IMG/VR virus record: IMGVR_UViG_3300046542_000099
Span: 1 to 20,000 of that record
DNA length: 20,000 nt
DNA from: a virus
Direction: 5' to 3' (one strand)
The position numbers and the translations under genes were made by a program. Positions 1 to 9,446 of the stretch are shown here, piece by piece; position 1 is the first letter of the stretch, and every line of letters starts with the position of its first letter. The notes under the pieces were generated by a model that was not told the origin of the DNA, did no database searches, and saw nothing but the letters and a program-made list of their open reading frames with translations.

Positions 1-844
1 AGTTTGCCGCGTCCAGGTCGGCGGCCGTAAAACGGTCCGATGCCTTCCCGTAGCCCGTCACCAGGCGCTGGATCAGCTGCGCGCAGGTGTTCCTGTACCC
101 GCCCTGGCAGTCTCCCTGCACGGACGCGGCAATCTCGCCGCGCGTGCTGGTGTCAACGTCGGCGGCCAACCGGAATGTGCCGCGCGCGAGATCGAAGCTC
201 GGGAGCGACTCCTCGATGAGGGGCACACCGTTGTCACGTACCTCGATAATCCGCTCGACCACGCCACTGTGAACCTGGAATTCCAGGTTGGTCGGATCGG
301 TCAGCAGCGGCGTGACGTTGTGGCACTCGCCCAGGAGGACTGGGACCAGCGCATCGGCGCTTTGCGTCGTGCCGCCCAGCTTCGCCTCGGTGATCGGGGC
401 ATTCAGGCGCTGCAGCTTATCGCGCAACTTCAGGAGCAGCTTGTCCGGTCCGTTGGGAGCGATGTCGGCGATGATGCCGTTGAAGATCATGCGGAAGTCC
501 GCCCGCGCCCAGCGCACGTCGCCGATATACGCCTTGAACGGCCGGTTCGCCCACACGTAGTCTTTCCAGGCGTCGCGCTCGCCGTTGTAGTTGTCGATCT
601 CCACGTCGCCGGCCGACAGCGCGCCGTCGCCGGTCAGGGACAGCTGCTCGGTGAACAGCGTGCCGACGGTCGCGATCGGGCGGTAGTGGGTGTTGGCCGG
701 GGCGTCGGTCGGCGCGGTGTTGTACCCCTTGGTCGCCATGTAGATCACGGTCTCCACACCGGCGATCCGGGCAGTCGCCTCGATCAGCACCAGGCGGATC
801 GCGGCCGGACTCTTCAGCCATTCCAGGAATTGCGCATCGGTCAT
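1..844 (-). CDS. Phage tail protein downstream of tape measure (3' end outside window)
   Basis: The frame starts at an ATG at 844 (MTDAQFLEWLKSP) and stays open to the left edge, giving at least 281 residues. Its ATG overlaps the tape-measure stop as ATGA, so the two should be translationally coupled. The visible part looks like a soluble, beta-rich virion protein with no signal peptide or membrane segment. It contains the motifs VEIDNYNGERDAWKDYVW and FNGIIADI followed by a Leu/Lys-rich stretch. In siphoviruses of the B3/D3112 type the genes directly after the tape measure encode tail-tip and baseplate-like components, so a tail-tip role is the best inference. I do not recognise the exact family. 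The C-terminus, and therefore any hub or fibre domain, is not visible. Confidence 0.75.
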   Translation of the reverse strand, partial: MTDAQFLEWLKSPAAIRLVLIEATARIAGVETVIYMATKGYNTAPTDAPANTHYRPIATVGTLFTEQLSLTGDGALSAGDVEIDNYNGERDAWKDYVWANRPFKAYIGDVRWARADFRMIFNGIIADIAPNGPDKLLLKLRDKLQRLNAPITEAKLGGTTQSADALVPVLLGECHNVTPLLTDPTNLEFQVHSGVVERIIEVRDNGVPLIEESLPSFDLARGTFRLAADVDTSTRGEIAASVQGDCQGGYRNTCAQLIQRLVTGYGKASDRFTAADLDAAN

Positions 845-3800
845 ACTGGTATTACCCTCGTTTCACGTACTTGCCCCGCCTTTACCGACTCGACGGCGCG
901 GGCGATCTTTTCGGCGGACTGGTCTGCCGCCACCAGGGTGGCCTCGGCCAGATCGCCGGTCTGGCGCTCGGCGTCGCCACGGAACCCCCGCAGCTCGTCG
1001 ACCAGCCCCTGGCGCTCGGCGCGCAGGGACTTGATCTCGGAGACGAGGGACGCCATCGGGAGGGTGCCCATCGCCCGGTAGTCGATCGCCTCCCGGGCGG
1101 TAAGCACTGCCTCATCCTCGTGCAGCTCGGCGATGTAGCCATCGAACGGCACCCGTGCGAGCCCGTTGGCGTGTGAGCCATGGACGCGCTGGTATTCGTC
1201 ACTACGGGAGAACCAGCTCGCGATTTCCGTGATGCTCATCCCGTTGGCCATGTTCTGTTGCCAGTACTGCAGGCCAGCCTCGTCTGCCTGGCGGCCCAGC
1301 ATGTTTTGATAGAGGGACTGCAACGAGGCGGTCTGAGCCGTATTCACCACGCCGGCACCGGACGCCCCCAAGGCAACCCCCAGGTTATTGATCGCCTCCG
1401 TGACCGTCTGCACGGCCGACTTCACCTCGAGCAAGCCGGACACCTGCTGCTGCAGGGCTGCCAGGCTCGCCTCGCCCACGTCGACCTGCTTCTCGGCCCA
1501 GCCGATCGCCTCCTCGGTCGCGGCCTGGGCGTAGGCGAAGTCGCGCTGATAGGCAGCGCCGCTGGCGTTGGCAGTCTTGGATGCGTTCAGGAAGGCGGTG
1601 TAGGCATCCTGGAAGCGCCCTTGGGCGTCCACGTCACCCTTGCGCGCGGCGCCCAATGTCGCCTCGAATTGCGCCCTGGCCTCGGCGTATTTCTGCTGCG
1701 GCGTCAAAGGCGACAGGTCACCCAGCAGGCTCTTGTCGTGCAGAGCACGCAGGCTCTTGGCGAAGGTGGCCAACCGATCCTGGGTGGCTTTGATTGCATC
1801 GGCCTCGCGCTCGTAGGCCTCGGTAATTGCGGTTCGGGCGTCCAGCACCTTGGTCGCGGCCTTCTCCTGGTCGGCCTGCGCCTTCGTCGCCGCCTGCACC
1901 TGGTCGAACAGCGCGCGGTTGCTCTCATCGAGCGCGTCGCGACGCTTCTGCAGCAGTTCGGCTTCCGAAAACGTCAACTCGTCGAGCTGCTGCAGCAATT
2001 CCGCGCGCTCGGCCTGGATATCCGCTTGCGAGCGCAATGCGGCCGTCGTCGCTTCGATGGCCGGATGTACCTGCGCGAAGGCCTCAGCGAGTGCCATCAG
2101 CGAGTCAAACTCGCGCGCGCCCGCTTCGGTGAGGATCGCGCCGGACGACACCAGCTGGTCGATGTGCGCCTTGAACTGCTCGCGGTTCGTGATCGACGCC
2201 AGGCCCAGGCCTGCCATCGCTTCGGTGACGGCTTTGCTCACCGGTGCCAAACGTTCCGCCTCGGTTAGAAAGTTCTGCGCGTAGGTGGCCGCCTGCTGGC
2301 CCAGAACGTCGGCGCCGCCGGCCAAGTCGACCAGCCGCTGGCGTGCCTGGGTCGAAGCAAGCCCCACGTCGCCGAACACGTCGACCGCGCTCTTGCCGAG
2401 CATCTGGGCCATCAGATTGGTGGCCTGGAAGTTCCCCATCAACCGCTGCAGCGTGGCTGCCGTGGTCTCGCCAACCCTGGAGAACTCGGCGACGTTCGGC
2501 ATGACCAGCTTGACCATCGTGTCCGAGATACCGGCGAAAAAGTCGGTGATCGCCTTTTCGTTGGCCGCCTTATCGCTCGTCAGCGCGATGTTGAACGTAG
2601 TCTGGAAGTTGTCGATCGCGTCGCTCGACACCCCGAGCGTTTCGGCCGCCAGGTGCGCCGAGGCGCGGATCGCCAGGAACGCTTGCCCGAGCTGGCTGGC
2701 GGTTTGCGCGTCGAAGTCCTTGCGAACGGGCGTGTTCCGGTCGCTGCTAAACCACCCGCCGTCCTGGTGCTCGGTCGCGTACGTCTGGCCGCCGGCCCCG
2801 GTCCCGTTGAGCCAGCCCGTCATGCCTTGGTTCTGGATCTCGGTCGCCCCGTGGCCGAAGGCGCGGTTGGCGAGACCACCGAGGGCGCCGCCGATGAGCG
2901 CGCCGATGGCAGTGCCCAGGACCGGCACGAACGAGCCGACCGCCGCACCGATGGCGGTACCCGTGTTCACCACCGCTTGCCCGTGGTCGCCGATGCCGTA
3001 ACCGCCCGACAGGGCGTTGCCGATATAGTGCCCGCCGAGCAGGCCGGCGCCGATGCTGGCGGCCGAGCCGAGCGCTGCGCCGGTGGCGCTGGCGCCGGTG
3101 CTGCCGATCGTGCCCGGGCCGAACATGCTGGCGATCGAGTCGTAGCCACCCGCAACCGAGGAGGCGATCTTGTCGAAGCCGCCACTGACCATCTTGTACA
3201 GGTTAGACGCGGCCTGCGCCGCGCCGACCAGGTTTCCGCCCCCTGCGGACGAGGTCTCACCGCCCAAGGCGGCCTGAACCGTACTGCCGGAGATCGTGCC
3301 GGCCATGCTGGTCATGACCTGCACGACGTATTTCTTGATGAACGTCTGGTAGAGCGCATCCGCGAGGGACGCTTTCAGGGTGCTGGCGAGCGAGGTCGAG
3401 AACGACTTCCAGGCGTCGTGCCCGTGCTCCAGCATGTTGCGGAACCCTTCCCGGAAGTCGCCGTCCAGGTTGTTGATGATTCCCTTCCAGCGGTCCACCA
3501 CCGGAGCCAGCTGCCGGTTGGCGTACCACTCGTCGAACTGGGCCTGCAGCTGCCGCTGCGCCTCGGTTCCCTCACCGGCAAGCTTGATCCGCTCGCGCCA
3601 CAGGTCGGCGTCGATCTGCAGGAGCCGCGCCGAGCGGGTCGCTTCGTCCGCGATGGAGTCCGCCGCGAACTTGCGATTCTCCTGGCGCAACTGCTCCGCG
3701 CCGGCCAGCGCCTGGCGCTCGCCCATGATTGCGGCAATATTGTCCTTGCGCGCGACGGCCGCCTGCTCCAGGTCGGCGATTTCCTGCGCGGTGAACGCAT

Positions 3801-5916
3801 GCCCTTGCTTCTGCCAGTTGAGCATGAACTGGCGCAGCTCGGCCTCGACCTTGAGCTGCTCCGCCGATATCTTGCGGGCCTCGGCCGACTGGCCGAACAG
3901 GGCCGCCTCGTCGGCCAGCGCCGATCGCTCGGTCCTGGTGGCGTTCTCCCACGCCTTCGCCTGGTCCGCGATCGCCTTGGTCGCCGCAAACGCGTATTCG
4001 TTCAGGGTGTTCTGAGCTGCCTGGATCACGCCCTTGCGGCGGGCCTCCAGCTCGGCGAGCTGGCCGAGGTACTTCTTGCGCTCGGCGAGGTCGGCCTTGC
4101 CTCCTGCGAGGTCCGCCTTCTTCCGGACGGCCGCCTCCTCGGCAGCCAGGTCCTGCAGTTGCAGGTCCCGCTTTGCAACGACAAACGCGGCGTCGCTCAC
4201 CAGCTGCTGCTTGTGACGGCTCTCCAGGTCGGCCAGGCTGTTGGCGGCCGCTTGCTTTTCCAGACCGCGCTGGGCGTCCATCCCGGCCAACACCACATTG
4301 TTGAGGTCACTGTACTGCTTGCGGATCGCGGCGAGCCGACTGTCGATCTCGGCCTGGGGGATGCCTGCAGCCTTACCCTCGTTGCGGGCCTTGGTCAGAT
4401 CGCGCTCAAGCTGGGCCGCGCGCGACAAGTACTTGTCACCGCCCTCAAGCCATTTTTTGCGGGCCTCGTCCGCCTGGGCGGCTTCCGCCTGCGCCCTGGC
4501 TGATTCCCTCGCCGCGTCGCCGCGCGCGCGCAGCGTGTTGATCTGGCGGTTGTTGAGGTCGAGCTCGGCCTGCAGGGCGGCGATGTTGTTGCCGAGGCCA
4601 CGGGCCTGTGCACGGTGCAGGTTCTCCTCGATCCGGGTCCGCTCATCGAGCAGCGTATTGATCTTCTCGAAGTTCGACTTGTCGCGGCCGCCGGCGAATT
4701 CGATGACCGCGTCGACGGCGCCCGAAGCGGCGTTCTTGATCCGAAGCCAGCCGCGCTCCCAATCGGTCAAGCTGTCGAGCACCTTCTGCCGTTGCGCATC
4801 GATCCCGTCGGCGTAGGCTTTCTGCGCCACTTCGGCCGCCGCGGCGGCCTTGCCCTGGTCCTGCAGCGCCTTGACCTGGGCATAGGTCGCCGCCGTGATG
4901 GAGTGGTACTTGTCGTTGATCTTGTCCAGGGCGGCCAGCGGCGACTTGCCCAGTTCGGCAAAGTCGGCGGCCGTCTCGGCGATGCTACGGCCGACAACAC
5001 GCTCCGCCCCGACTGCCGTCGCCGCGAACTGCTTCATGTTGTCGATCGAGACCTGCCCGGTGCTCACCAGCGCAGTGATTGCGCCAGCAGCCTCGCGCTG
5101 CGAACCCGCTACCTGGCCGACTTCCCGGGCCACGTCGGCGAGCTGCTCAGCGGTCGCGCCGGCCACGTTGCCGCTTAACGCCAGGGAGCGCGCATACGCC
5201 GAAGACTCATCAGCGCCTACTTTGTAAGCAAATGCCAGCCCGGCCGCCACCGCAGTCGCAGCCGCGAACGGGGTGATCAGGCCTAGCACGTAAGAGCCGA
5301 GGCCGCGGGCAGCGGCGCCGATGCTGCCGAACGAGTCGCGCAGTTGGCCACCCTGCTGCAGCATGACAGTCAGCGGCGCCTGCCCGCCCTGGAGCGAGGT
5401 GACGATGTCGGTGACTTGCGCCGGCACCTGGCGCATAGCGTTGTTCAGTTGGGCGGTGCTTGCGCCGAGCTGCTGAACTGAACCTGTCGTGTTCCGGGTC
5501 GCCTCCTGCACCGCGCGGTGGCGCCCTGCGACGTTGTCGAGCTGGACGGCCTGGGACCGGCTTGTATCGGTCAGGTTCGCCTGGGCGGCCTGCAGGGCTG
5601 CGCTGCTCGCTGCCTGGCTGGTCTGAGCCGACTGGACGGCCTGGCTGGTGCGCTGGGCGGTCGCGCCCAGCTGGGTCGTCGACGCGGCGACCTGGTCGAC
5701 CGCCTGCGCCGTAGCGTGGCTCGCAGCCTGGGCTGCCTGCATGGCCGCCGTGTTGACCGTCTGGCGGGCCTGCGTCGACTGGACCGCGTCGCCGGCACGA
5801 TCGGCCGCACTGCCCAGGCGGTCGAGGGAGGCCGCAACCTGGTCGACCGCATCCGCCGAGGCACGATTGCCGTTGACGTTGATACGGATTCCATACTCGA
5901 CCTGGTTGTTGCTCAT
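841..5916 (-). CDS. Tail length tape measure protein (lambda gpH-like), with C-terminal DUF4214-like segment
   Basis: This is the longest frame, 1691 residues. It sets tail length and is thought to be ejected with the DNA. Residues 24-121 hold two copies of a 49-residue Ala/Gln-rich unit beginning VDQVAAS. Residues about 135-430 resemble the prophage tail length tape measure domain, including VPAQVTDIVTSLQGGQAP near 163 and a hydrophobic helix near 199-225. Long charged coiled-coil stretches follow, then a Gly/Ala-rich hydrophobic region about two thirds along. Residues about 1532-1580 (LYQNMLGRQADEAGLQYW) look like a DUF4214 unit. The segment ANGLARVPFDGYIAELHEDE after it is a usual tape-measure C-terminal motif. 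ATG at 5916 lies 14 nt after the preceding stop, with a modest GGGA Shine-Dalgarno. The large size agrees with a long non-contractile tail. Confidence 0.95.
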   Translation of the reverse strand: MSNNQVEYGIRINVNGNRASADAVDQVAASLDRLGSAADRAGDAVQSTQARQTVNTAAMQAAQAASHATAQAVDQVAASTTQLGATAQRTSQAVQSAQTSQAASSAALQAAQANLTDTSRSQAVQLDNVAGRHRAVQEATRNTTGSVQQLGASTAQLNNAMRQVPAQVTDIVTSLQGGQAPLTVMLQQGGQLRDSFGSIGAAARGLGSYVLGLITPFAAATAVAAGLAFAYKVGADESSAYARSLALSGNVAGATAEQLADVAREVGQVAGSQREAAGAITALVSTGQVSIDNMKQFAATAVGAERVVGRSIAETAADFAELGKSPLAALDKINDKYHSITAATYAQVKALQDQGKAAAAAEVAQKAYADGIDAQRQKVLDSLTDWERGWLRIKNAASGAVDAVIEFAGGRDKSNFEKINTLLDERTRIEENLHRAQARGLGNNIAALQAELDLNNRQINTLRARGDAARESARAQAEAAQADEARKKWLEGGDKYLSRAAQLERDLTKARNEGKAAGIPQAEIDSRLAAIRKQYSDLNNVVLAGMDAQRGLEKQAAANSLADLESRHKQQLVSDAAFVVAKRDLQLQDLAAEEAAVRKKADLAGGKADLAERKKYLGQLAELEARRKGVIQAAQNTLNEYAFAATKAIADQAKAWENATRTERSALADEAALFGQSAEARKISAEQLKVEAELRQFMLNWQKQGHAFTAQEIADLEQAAVARKDNIAAIMGERQALAGAEQLRQENRKFAADSIADEATRSARLLQIDADLWRERIKLAGEGTEAQRQLQAQFDEWYANRQLAPVVDRWKGIINNLDGDFREGFRNMLEHGHDAWKSFSTSLASTLKASLADALYQTFIKKYVVQVMTSMAGTISGSTVQAALGGETSSAGGGNLVGAAQAASNLYKMVSGGFDKIASSVAGGYDSIASMFGPGTIGSTGASATGAALGSAASIGAGLLGGHYIGNALSGGYGIGDHGQAVVNTGTAIGAAVGSFVPVLGTAIGALIGGALGGLANRAFGHGATEIQNQGMTGWLNGTGAGGQTYATEHQDGGWFSSDRNTPVRKDFDAQTASQLGQAFLAIRASAHLAAETLGVSSDAIDNFQTTFNIALTSDKAANEKAITDFFAGISDTMVKLVMPNVAEFSRVGETTAATLQRLMGNFQATNLMAQMLGKSAVDVFGDVGLASTQARQRLVDLAGGADVLGQQAATYAQNFLTEAERLAPVSKAVTEAMAGLGLASITNREQFKAHIDQLVSSGAILTEAGAREFDSLMALAEAFAQVHPAIEATTAALRSQADIQAERAELLQQLDELTFSEAELLQKRRDALDESNRALFDQVQAATKAQADQEKAATKVLDARTAITEAYEREADAIKATQDRLATFAKSLRALHDKSLLGDLSPLTPQQKYAEARAQFEATLGAARKGDVDAQGRFQDAYTAFLNASKTANASGAAYQRDFAYAQAATEEAIGWAEKQVDVGEASLAALQQQVSGLLEVKSAVQTVTEAINNLGVALGASGAGVVNTAQTASLQSLYQNMLGRQADEAGLQYWQQNMANGMSITEIASWFSRSDEYQRVHGSHANGLARVPFDGYIAELHEDEAVLTAREAIDYRAMGTLPMASLVSEIKSLRAERQGLVDELRGFRGDAERQTGDLAEATLVAADQSAEKIARAVESVKAGQVRETRVIPV
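5554..5847 (-). repeat. Tandem 49-residue (147-bp) duplication in tape measure N-terminus
   Basis: Two diverged in-frame copies begin at residues 24 and 73 of the tape measure. Both start VDQVAAS, continue with a LGxxAxRxxxAVQS segment and end with ALQAAQA or AMQAAQA. The spacing is 49 residues. It is a protein-level duplication; the DNA copies have diverged. Confidence 0.7.
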
Positions 5917-5930
5917 GTATTAGCTGTCCC

Positions 5931-6368
5931 TTACCGTGAATTCCTGGCTGCTGCCTTGGCGGCCTCCAGTTCCTCTTGCCGCTTGCGCCGGCGCGCCGCG
6001 CGGGCCGCGTTCATCACTCTCATGGCCGCGTCTTCCATCGCCTCAAGGTCGGCGATGACCTCGGGCCACTTGCGACGCGCGATTCCGTTGGTGTTGCGGA
6101 GAATCCCCTCGATGTTCGGCCACCAGATACCCGTCCTGACCAGCTCGCCATCCGGGGCGGCGACAATGTTCCATTTGCTGTGGAGCCGGAGGAAGAGTCG
6201 CAGGGTGGGCCAGTTGTCGGGCCAGATTTCGTACCGCTCCTCCTCGACATCGCTCTCCCTAGGCGCTTCCGCAATCTCGTCGGCCAGACCGAGGAGCTCC
6301 ATGTCGTCGGCCAGCTCGTCGCTGACCGCGCGGGGGCCGGTCGGGTTGTCGTTCGCGCCGCCGATCAC
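5931..6368 (-). CDS. DUF1799-like tail assembly protein, probably made as a -1 frameshift fusion (gpGT-like)
   Basis: The stand-alone frame from a GTG at 6368 would give 145 residues. The same frame is open upstream to the slippery site at 6398, adding LEGAAEWWGR, so a -1 shift from the preceding chaperone gives a fusion of about 276 residues. There is no convincing Shine-Dalgarno before the GTG, which also supports frameshifting as the main route. The middle of the protein (EIWPDNWPTLRLFLRL) resembles DUF1799 phage proteins; the C-terminus is a basic Ala/Arg-rich helix. In lambda the corresponding GT product helps load tail tube protein on the tape measure. The position between the chaperone and the tape measure fits that role exactly. 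The DUF1799 assignment is from memory of the family pattern. Confidence 0.85.
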   Translation of the reverse strand: MIGGANDNPTGPRAVSDELADDMELLGLADEIAEAPRESDVEEERYEIWPDNWPTLRLFLRLHSKWNIVAAPDGELVRTGIWWPNIEGILRNTNGIARRKWPEVIADLEAMEDAAMRVMNAARAARRRKRQEELEAAKAAARNSR

Positions 6369-6391
6369 CCGGCCCCACCACTCTGCGGCGC
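6333..6391 (-). promoter_or_regulatory. Possible H-type RNA pseudoknot stimulating -1 frameshift
   Basis: Read as minus-strand RNA, stem 1 pairs GCGCCGC (6391-6385) with GCGGCGC (6361-6355). Its loop contains GGGGCCGG (6376-6369), which pairs with CCGGCCCC (6340-6333) downstream of stem 1, giving crossed stems of 7 and 8 bp. Stem 1 begins 6 nt after the slippery heptamer, a normal spacing. This is a hand-made fold in GC-rich DNA, so chance complementarity is possible. Confidence 0.5.
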
Positions 6392-6394
6392 CTT

Positions 6395-6760
6395 CTAGTT
6401 TTTTCGCTTGCTCGTCTGGATCGAGTCGAAGAAGGCTTTCACCAACCGTGGGCGGGTTGGGTAGATGTCCAGAAGCGTCGCCAGATTCTCTTCGTTGAAC
6501 TCCTGGGGCTGGTCTTGCCCGTCCAGCACATCTTCCCAGCCGTCCATGACTTCACGCAGCAGCGCGTCGTCGCTCAGCAGTTCTTCGCCATCCTTGAGCT
6601 GCAGGGCGTTGAGGCGGCGGTGGATCTCGTCCAGCTCGGCTTGCGTCTTGCGCTTGAACCGTGCTTTGAAAATGTGTTTGATGGTCTTGCCGCCCCCGTT
6701 CGGCACTTCGACTTCGACGGGTTGGAGGTAGGTCTGGCTGACGCTTCCAATTTTGAACAT
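6395..6760 (-). CDS. Tail assembly chaperone, short form (lambda gpG-like)
   Basis: A 121-residue acidic protein starting MFKIGSVSQTYLQPVEVEVP. It has a beta-rich N-terminus with the basic stretch KHIFKARFKRKTQAE, followed by an acidic helical part (LDEIHRRLNALQLKDGEELL) and FNEENLATLLDIYPTRPRLV. The layout is that of siphovirus tail assembly chaperones, which bind the tape measure in the cytoplasm and are absent from the finished virion. The ATG at 6760 has a GAGG about 8 nt upstream. It lies between tail tube and tape measure and ends in a slippery sequence (KRKN, then TAG), which is the hallmark of this gene. Family assignment rests on position, size and the frameshift more than on a sharp motif. 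Confidence 0.9.
   Translation of the reverse strand: MFKIGSVSQTYLQPVEVEVPNGGGKTIKHIFKARFKRKTQAELDEIHRRLNALQLKDGEELLSDDALLREVMDGWEDVLDGQDQPQEFNEENLATLLDIYPTRPRLVKAFFDSIQTSKRKN
6398..6404 (-). other. Programmed -1 ribosomal frameshift slippery site A AAA AAC
   Basis: The minus-strand sequence is CGA AAA AAC TAG in the chaperone frame. The heptamer A AAA AAC fits the canonical X XXY YYZ pattern in the correct phase, immediately before the TAG stop at 6397-6395. A -1 slip continues as CTA GAA GGC and enters the downstream DUF1799-like frame without a stop. Confidence 0.88.
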
Positions 6761-6821: not shown

Positions 6822-7769
6822 TTACAGGCAGGTCAATGCAATTTCGTCATTACCTGCTACCGGCGCCGGCTCCAAGGTCAGCTTGTAGGCGGCCATCCCC
6901 TCGACCTGGTCGTAGGCGACGTTGGCGATACGGGCTTGCAGATCGACCTTGGTTTTTTTGCCGGCGACGCTGCCGTGCGTTGCACTGATGGGCACAATGG
7001 CGTTGCTCTCGGCAATGGCGAACGGGTTGAAGGTCGCCAGGTCCGGGGCGAGCACGGTCACCGAGGCGCTTGGCGAGCGATCGCTGAGCACGATTTCCTT
7101 CTGCGGCCCAGGGAGGTCGATCCGGCTGACTTTCTGGCCGAAGTCCCAATCCAGCGCCGACCAGGACAGCGCCACGCCGTTAATCGATGCAGGTCCGGTA
7201 TTGACGCTATTAACGCCTTCCTCGACCGGCCAGCCGGTCCGGGTTACGGTGGGCATGGTGCCGGTGGCCGGGGTGACGTACAGGGCGTCGAAGTCGAAGC
7301 TGAGCTTCGGCGTACCCTTGGTAGCCATGCTGGCCTTCGCGTTACCGCGCATGCCCAGGAGCTTGTGCAGCACGCCGTCGATGTTCAGGTAGCCGACGAC
7401 GCTCGGGTAGGCGGACGACACCAGGTTATAGGCGACCGACGTACCGGCGGTCACGGTGGAGGCCGTGCCGGCCGCGAGCATGGCCGCATTCCACTTGGGC
7501 GCCGTGCCGATGGCTGTCCCTGGGATCATGGCCACGTCGAACGAGAGTTTCGCCCAGAAGCCGACCAGGACGCTGCCGGCGTTGCCCGCGTAGGGCAGTT
7601 CAATGTCGCGCTGGACCTTGTCGGCGTCGATCGGCGTCAGCTGGATGTTGCGCGCCTCGATCCAGTCGGCCGCGCCGCTCGGGGTCGAGTCGACGCCGTA
7701 ACTGGTTTCCAGCTTGAGCAGGAGAGCCTTCAGGCGCCACTTGCGCGGGGAGGTAATGAGGTTAGCCAC
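6822..7769 (-). CDS. Tail tube (major tail) protein
   Basis: A 315-residue beta-rich protein starting (GTG) ANLITSPRKWRLKALLLKLE. The pattern YGVDSTPSGAADWIEARNI near the N-terminus, PYAGNAGSV, and later strands such as KLSFDFDALYVTP match the tail tube subunit of Mu-like siphophages, which stacks into rings around the tape measure. There is no signal peptide or membrane segment. The GTG start is preceded by a strong GGGAGG Shine-Dalgarno at good spacing and overlaps the end of the preceding small gene by 8 nt. The gene is followed directly by a stable stem-loop. The family name rests on recognition of general pattern and position; the structural role is fairly sure. Confidence 0.88.
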   Translation of the reverse strand: MANLITSPRKWRLKALLLKLETSYGVDSTPSGAADWIEARNIQLTPIDADKVQRDIELPYAGNAGSVLVGFWAKLSFDVAMIPGTAIGTAPKWNAAMLAAGTASTVTAGTSVAYNLVSSAYPSVVGYLNIDGVLHKLLGMRGNAKASMATKGTPKLSFDFDALYVTPATGTMPTVTRTGWPVEEGVNSVNTGPASINGVALSWSALDWDFGQKVSRIDLPGPQKEIVLSDRSPSASVTVLAPDLATFNPFAIAESNAIVPISATHGSVAGKKTKVDLQARIANVAYDQVEGMAAYKLTLEPAPVAGNDEIALTCL

Positions 7770-8869: not shown

Positions 8870-9406
8870 TTACGCTTCCTCGCCGGCCGGCAGCAGGACC
8901 ACGCGGCACGCCAGCATCGGCTCGGCCGCCAGCTGCCTTGCCTGCTCCTCGGTGATCTCAGAAGGCTCGATCACGGTCGGCGTGGTACTCCAGGCGCGAC
9001 CAGCGCGGCGGAACCCCTCCTGCCTGGAGGTCACCTCGAGACCATAGATGCTTGGGGGAGAAACGACGCTCTTCTTGTCGGCGCTTGCGCCACTGTCCGC
9101 CGCCCCGGCCTGCAGGCTTTGGGTGCCATCGCTGCCCTCGCCCTGCTGCAGGTCGGTCGAGCCCAGCTCGTGCTGCTGCGGAAGCTGGCCTCCGGCCTGC
9201 CCCTGCTGGCCCGCCTGCAGGGGCAGGCCACCCGTCGAGGTGTCCGCCTGCAGGTCCTGGCCGCCCGTCGAGGTGTCCGCCTGCAGCACCTGGCCGCCCG
9301 TCGAGGTGTCCGGTGGCAGGGGGTTCTGGGCGCCAGCGGCCGGTGCGCCCTGTTTCGAGGCTTTGCCGCCCTTCCGAGCTGGGGCGGCCGATGCGTTTTT
9401 TTCCAT
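8870..9406 (-). CDS. Gp35-like phage protein (HI1506 type) with 11-residue repeats
   Basis: Two ATGs are possible, at 9433 and 9406. I prefer 9406 (MEKNASAAPARKGGKASKQG, 178 residues) because GGAG lies 5 nt upstream; the 9433 start would have only a poorly spaced AGGCGG. The basic, Ala-rich N-terminus leads into three copies of an 11-residue unit (DTSTGGQxLQA) and then a Gln/Gly-rich linker. The C-terminal part (about residues 115-178) has SRQEGFRRAGRAWSTTPTVI and ITEEQARQLAAEPML, matching the conserved C-terminus of Mu gp35/HI1506 proteins. The exact function of that family is unknown. Its place between the capsid and DUF1320 genes suggests a head or connector-associated role. The long disordered N-terminus is the part that differs from simple family members. 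Confidence 0.82.
   Translation of the reverse strand: MEKNASAAPARKGGKASKQGAPAAGAQNPLPPDTSTGGQVLQADTSTGGQDLQADTSTGGLPLQAGQQGQAGGQLPQQHELGSTDLQQGEGSDGTQSLQAGAADSGASADKKSVVSPPSIYGLEVTSRQEGFRRAGRAWSTTPTVIEPSEITEEQARQLAAEPMLACRVVLLPAGEEA
9226..9312 (-). repeat. Three in-frame 33-bp tandem repeats inside the gp35-like gene
   Basis: The core GGCCRCCCGTCGAGGTGTCC (plus strand) starts at 9226, 9259 and 9292, an exact 33-bp period. The third copy is partial at its right end. The near identity of the DNA, more than protein constraint needs, suggests recent expansion by slippage or recombination. Each unit encodes an 11-residue DTSTGG-type repeat. Confidence 0.9.
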
Positions 9407-9446
9407 GTCGACTCCGAATGTTGTTTTGTGCATGCCGCCTGGCTTA

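Follow-up and report, generated by a model that had tools for sequence, protein, structure and literature searches.

We analysed a window of 20 kb, the whole stretch taken from IMGVR_UViG_3300046542_000099, in which the structural genes lie on the minus strand. The preliminary description of this DNA had called it a Mu-like siphophage, and Pfam matches agree with that description: those to MuF and Mu gp36 point to head genes like those of Mu, and those to tail-tube and TMP_2 families to a tail of the siphophage type. A gene of the TAC_4 family and a reading frame of the DUF1799 family lie between the tube gene at 6822-7769 and the TMP_2 gene at 841-5916. The features of the locus, in the order of transcription, are as follows.

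6822..7769, minus strand: tail tube protein gene, upstream neighbour of the chaperone gene (Pfam Phage_tube_2, E=1.5e-12)
6395..6760, minus strand: tail assembly chaperone gene (TAC_4, gpG-like), zero frame, 121 codons plus TAG (Pfam PF08748, phrog_569/313)
6398..6404, minus strand: slippery heptamer A_AAA_AAC in the chaperone's phase (sequence; A_AAA_AAC or G_GGA_AAC in relatives)
6395..6397, minus strand: chaperone TAG stop, 0 nt after the heptamer (sequence; adjacency in 47/52 clusters of relatives, see below)
5931..6398, minus strand: DUF1799 (gpT-like) extension, -1 frame, 155 residues, stop at 5931-5933 (Pfam PF08809)
6355..6391, minus strand: possible 3' stem-loop, 6 nt after the heptamer, with arms of 7 bp at 6391-6385 (GCGCCGC) and 6361-6355 (GCGGCGC), from a fold of 40-48 nt past the stop
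841..5916, minus strand: tape measure protein gene, downstream neighbour (Pfam TMP_2, E=6.1e-61)

The window chaperone matches TAC_4 (PF08748) with E=2.8e-7 and 31.2 bits, against a gathering cut-off of 21.1, and the -1 frame product matches DUF1799 (PF08809) with E=4.7e-10 and 40 bits, against a cut-off of 26. The chaperone's start, ATG 6760, has AGAGGGA upstream, and its client is presumed to be the tape measure protein. Profile searches gave no credible PDB match, nor did fold comparison of the TAC model (pLDDT 90); the DUF1799 model, compared with viral models, showed a weak resemblance to proteins predicted as 'tape measure chaperone' (best E 0.004). Elsewhere in the window, a DUF4214 domain (E=8.6e-13) spans residues 1532-1577 of the tape measure protein (841-5916, minus strand), close to the C-terminus, and a 187-aa gene at 8870-9433 on the minus strand (MEKNASAAP...) encodes short tandem repeats (TSTGGQVLQADTSTGGQDLQADTSTGGLPLQ...). 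Near the start of this last gene is a second in-phase A_AAA_AAC (9395-9401, minus strand), followed by GCA, which is probably there by chance.

Read on the minus strand, the chaperone gene ends AAG CGA AAA AAC TAG AAG GCG (C-terminus ...QTSKRKN*), confirming the earlier observation of a heptamer A AAA AAC in phase on the chaperone stop with a -1 frame that runs into DUF1799. Past the slip no stop interrupts this frame between 6398 and 5934, a stretch encoding 155 aa (LEGAAEWW...), and a fusion would comprise 121+155=276 residues joined as ...TSKRK(N or K)-LEGAAEWWGR. The junction peptide previously proposed, AFFDSIQTSK-KLEGAAEWW, omits an Arg and needs to be corrected to this sequence. Upstream, the -1 frame opens at 6551 and has no ATG, GTG or TTG before the slip; its first possible starts are GTG 6368, 10 codons past the slip, and ATG 6302. 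The frame had also been described as having only a GTG and no ribosome binding site. It does indeed lack a start codon ahead of GTG 6368, but the second half of that statement is slightly too strong, because GTG 6368 is preceded by a G-rich stretch that weakly resembles an SD sequence (-6.3 kcal/mol, the same value as for the ATG of the chaperone).

Conservation of the frame relation and heptamer

Searches with the window chaperone, by direct DNA search of a phage collection and by protein-pattern scans, found no close relatives, and relatives were recovered by searching with DUF1799 instead. We compared DUF1799 loci drawn from IMG/VR, from GTDB genomes and from GenBank phages, with both genes placed by iterated profiles. 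The conservation set consists of 203 loci, gathered without use of the heptamer and grouped into 52 clusters at 70% DUF1799 protein identity. A further 120 loci derived from a pattern search (L213 and later) were excluded from the conservation counts, since the search pattern itself contains the heptamer and stop.

The DUF1799 frame stands in the -1 relation to the TAC frame in 319/319 pairs. A canonical heptamer is present in 49 of the 52 clusters, as G_GGA_AAC in 25 and A_AAA_AAC in 24 (counting L161, where it lies 24 nt upstream of the stop). The stop falls directly on the heptamer in 47/52 clusters and 3 nt later in one cluster, and across the 52 clusters it is TGA in 34, TAA in 13 and TAG in 5. 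None of 1426 other ORFs of at least 120 codons in the comparison loci ends with a strong heptamer on its stop. Among isolate phages the heptamer with a 0-nt stop occurs in 18/20, for example in the T1-like ADB-2, in cyanophages and in a Rhodovulum phage. An independent pattern scan found it in at least 120 IMG/VR stretches, and 115 of the matches listed lie at the TAC/DUF1799 junction.

A heptamer that is not conserved in close relatives had been named beforehand as a result that would refute the frameshift, and the comparison does not refute it. In the closest relative found (L002), whose chaperone is 55% identical and whose DUF1799 part is about 80% identical, the heptamer, the TAG and 35 consecutive bases across the slip are the same as in the window. 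In a distant relative (L003) the corresponding site is G_GGA_AAC on TGA, and in cyanophage S-CBS1 it is A_AAA_AAC on TGA. Two diverged members, Skenny (L098) and L164, lack a canonical heptamer, and none was found at the junction of Ymer (L093). The junction reads GCA AAA GTT TAA in Klebsiella phage Skenny and CAA AAG TAA in Pectobacterium phage Ymer, with the place of the stop unchanged. At one locus in a gammaproteobacterial MAG (L198), two DUF1799 reading frames lie close to each other, with a TAC match for neither.

We looked for stimulators on both sides of the slip site. Folding stability was compared with that of synonymous codon shuffles, over 36 nt from the sixth base past the heptamer. 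The A_AAA_AAC group (23 clusters) has a mean z of -1.61, where control offsets give -0.12 to -0.81, which supports a putative 3' stem-loop beyond coding constraint in that group; the G_GGA_AAC group has weak extra stability (mean z -0.82). The window's own hairpin is not more stable than its synonymous shuffles (z -0.80 over 36 nt, -0.07 over 48 nt). Covariation in 16 hairpin sequences of common register was not counted as evidence, because these sequences had been picked for pairing. Upstream of the slip, the window has no clear SD-like stimulator (-2.2 kcal/mol), and in the family such a stretch is only slightly enriched (mean -4.2 vs -3.4 kcal/mol).

On this comparative sequence evidence we conclude with high confidence that the chaperone gene in the window contains an element for programmed -1 ribosomal frameshifting, of the type found in lambda G/GT; the frameshift is very probably real and functional. 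The preliminary description had read the locus in the same way, as a -1 frameshift giving a 276-residue fusion by lambda G/GT logic, and the constant frame relation and the 49/52 heptamers lend comparative support to it. Most ribosomes would read CGA AAA AAC and end at the adjacent UAG, yielding the 121-residue gpG-like chaperone. A minority would slip -1 on A_AAA_AAC, with the tRNAs on AAA AAC re-pairing with AAA AAA, and would read on through DUF1799 to give the 276-residue gpG-T-like fusion. If lambda is a guide, the tape measure protein would be coated by the short form, and a few copies of the fusion would recruit the tail tube subunit. Against this explanation counts the finding that in E. 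coli A_AAA_AAC slips far less readily than A_AAA_AAG (PMC5009743). The ordinary stability of the window's hairpin, the absence of a clear SD-like stimulator upstream of its slip site and the missing heptamers of Skenny, L164 and Ymer count against it as well.

The stop codon on the heptamer

The adjacent stop had been described as an uncommon refinement. Against the background of tail chaperone frameshifts in other phages this is fair, as PMC10885494 gives mean slip-to-stop distances of 26 nt for SEA-PHAGES genomes and of 36 nt for the Xu set. Within the TAC_4/DUF1799 phages, however, the adjacent stop is the norm (47/52 clusters) rather than an uncommon refinement, and it had been seen before: such frameshifts, stop-adjacent ones included (KL1, Loki), have already been predicted in single phages. 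We found no paper in the open-access literature searched that states stop adjacency as a rule of the family.

One way to view this stop is as a by-product of the protein sequence. In the stop-adjacent set the -1 frame has an invariant Leu, of which CTG is the commonest codon (41% of Leu codons), and a Leu codon (CTG or CTA) followed by A or G would spell a zero-frame stop. We examined codon use at the stop position in all 52 clusters. The position following the conserved Leu holds chemically varied residues (T, I, R, K, E, S), yet its codon and that of the Leu together spell a zero-frame stop in 50/52 clusters. Where that residue is Arg, it is encoded by AGR in 9/9 clusters, whereas the same genes mostly use CGN and AGR is rare in them. 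The joint p is about 1e-10 (9 Arg clusters and one Ser, with clusters taken as independent) and is overstated because the clusters are related. Additionally, the loci that have CTC for Leu (L079 and others) stop one codon later through CTA A, and Skenny retains the stop with TTA AGG despite the loss of its heptamer. These patterns all speak against a by-product, and codon choice suggests that selection at the nucleotide level maintains the stop as such.

This selection may be for tuning of the frameshift or for fixing of the chaperone's C-terminus, and the patterns fit both alike. We give a little under an even chance to the stop on the heptamer itself being functional, with slippage occurring while the stop is in the A site and the ratio set by competition with release factor. 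If this is true, the ratio of chaperone to fusion would depend on which stop codon is present and on the RF1 or RF2 level of the host. The chance that the frameshift is real but unaffected by the adjacent stop, which would then be either a by-product of Leu codons or there only to end the short chaperone at that residue, is also considerable but falls somewhat short of even; some stop past the slip is needed in any case.

Published work bears on the direction of any such effect. The preliminary description had suggested that ribosomes paused at the stop may be more prone to slip, and this is not supported: the E. coli experiments related in a passage of PMC4373837 (citing its reference 33) point the opposite way, as a stop placed after the HIV-1 heptamer lowered frameshifting, and a surplus of its cognate release factor, RF2, abolished it. 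Not all systems behave like this. In pea enation mosaic virus, full frameshifting needs a stop 3 nt downstream, and in some bacterial dnaX genes a stop apparently lies directly after the slip site (PMC5009743). Judging from the bacterial work, post-translocation slippage in the window would compete with release factor 1, since the next codon is a stop, and the role of the adjacent stop is probably to set the ratio and hold it down, not to trigger the slip. Most likely, the stop keeps the fusion to a small share, which would fit a ratio like that of lambda, where chaperone to fusion is 30:1 (PMC5009743).

Other sources of the downstream product

It is very unlikely that no fusion is made and that DUF1799 is instead a gene of its own, with translational coupling providing the start at GTG 6368 or ATG 6302. 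Most GenBank records do annotate two genes, and GTG 6368 has the weak SD-like stretch described above (-6.3 kcal/mol). The conserved block of the -1 frame, however, begins exactly at the slip, ahead of any start codon; its LxxAA motif sits between the slip and the GTG, upstream of both candidate starts and without a start of its own, and would therefore be made only by read-through from the chaperone. GTG 6368 is GTC in L002, and a separate gene would leave the heptamer on the stop in 47/52 clusters without a reason. Likewise very unlikely is transcriptional slippage on the window's run of six A in place of ribosomal slippage, because about half of the clusters have G_GGA_AAC, with no long homopolymer, at that position, and six A is in any case short for polymerase slippage.

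Comparison with known systems and annotation

The lambda G/GT tail assembly chaperone frameshift was reportedly described by Xu, Hendrix and Duda in 2004 and by Levin in 1993. The window resembles it in having the gene between tail tube and tape measure, a short form with a -1 extension and a heptamer near the end of the chaperone, and differs in its A_AAA_AAC, where lambda has G_GGA_AAG, its 0-nt stop and its TAC_4 and DUF1799 families. Another known case is gp18/gp19 of Burkholderia phage KL1, a stop-adjacent frameshift predicted previously, which differs in using G_GGA_AAC with TGA and in having an extra gene before the tape measure gene. Acinetobacter phage vB_AbaS_Loki likewise has AAAAAAC directly adjoining the gp12 stop, with a gp12/gp13 fusion proposed (PMC5313236); it belongs to another phage lineage, its fusion is only predicted, and it too has an extra gene before the tape measure gene. 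The tape measure chaperones of T1-like phages (Stevie, Skenny, ADB-2) share the -1 relation of TAC and DUF1799, although these are Drexlerviridae and Skenny is without a canonical heptamer; ADB-2 has A_AAA_AAC_TAA, and the frameshift product is annotated in Skenny and mentioned for Stevie. Some eukaryotic RNA viruses also place a stop directly after a slippery sequence (PMC4373837), but their products are unrelated and eRF1 takes the place of RF1/RF2.

The frameshift itself is textbook, and the interest lies in what appears to be a family-wide selected stop on the slippery site. Kept in nearly every cluster, through two heptamer types and three stop codons, this stop offers a natural series for bacterial -1 frameshifting, addressing whether a bacterial -1 slip is possible once the next codon has entered the A site and how strongly termination competes with it.

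The TAC_4/DUF1799 family is large, diverse and under-annotated. A tblastn search with one DUF1799 protein matched 1099 phage records. It had been expected that standard annotation would miss the fusion, and mostly it does: a joined CDS is given in only 2 of the 21 GenBank records examined, leaving the fusion unannotated in 19. The genes are also misnamed at a number of loci (L004, L086, L090, L091, L100 and others). Chaperone and DUF1799 genes are called 'tail length tape measure protein', which is also the PHROGs name of phrog_569 and phrog_680, and other names include 'FAD-dependent oxidoreductase' in Acidovorax phage Aval and 'ATPase component of the ABC-type' transporter in S-LBS1.
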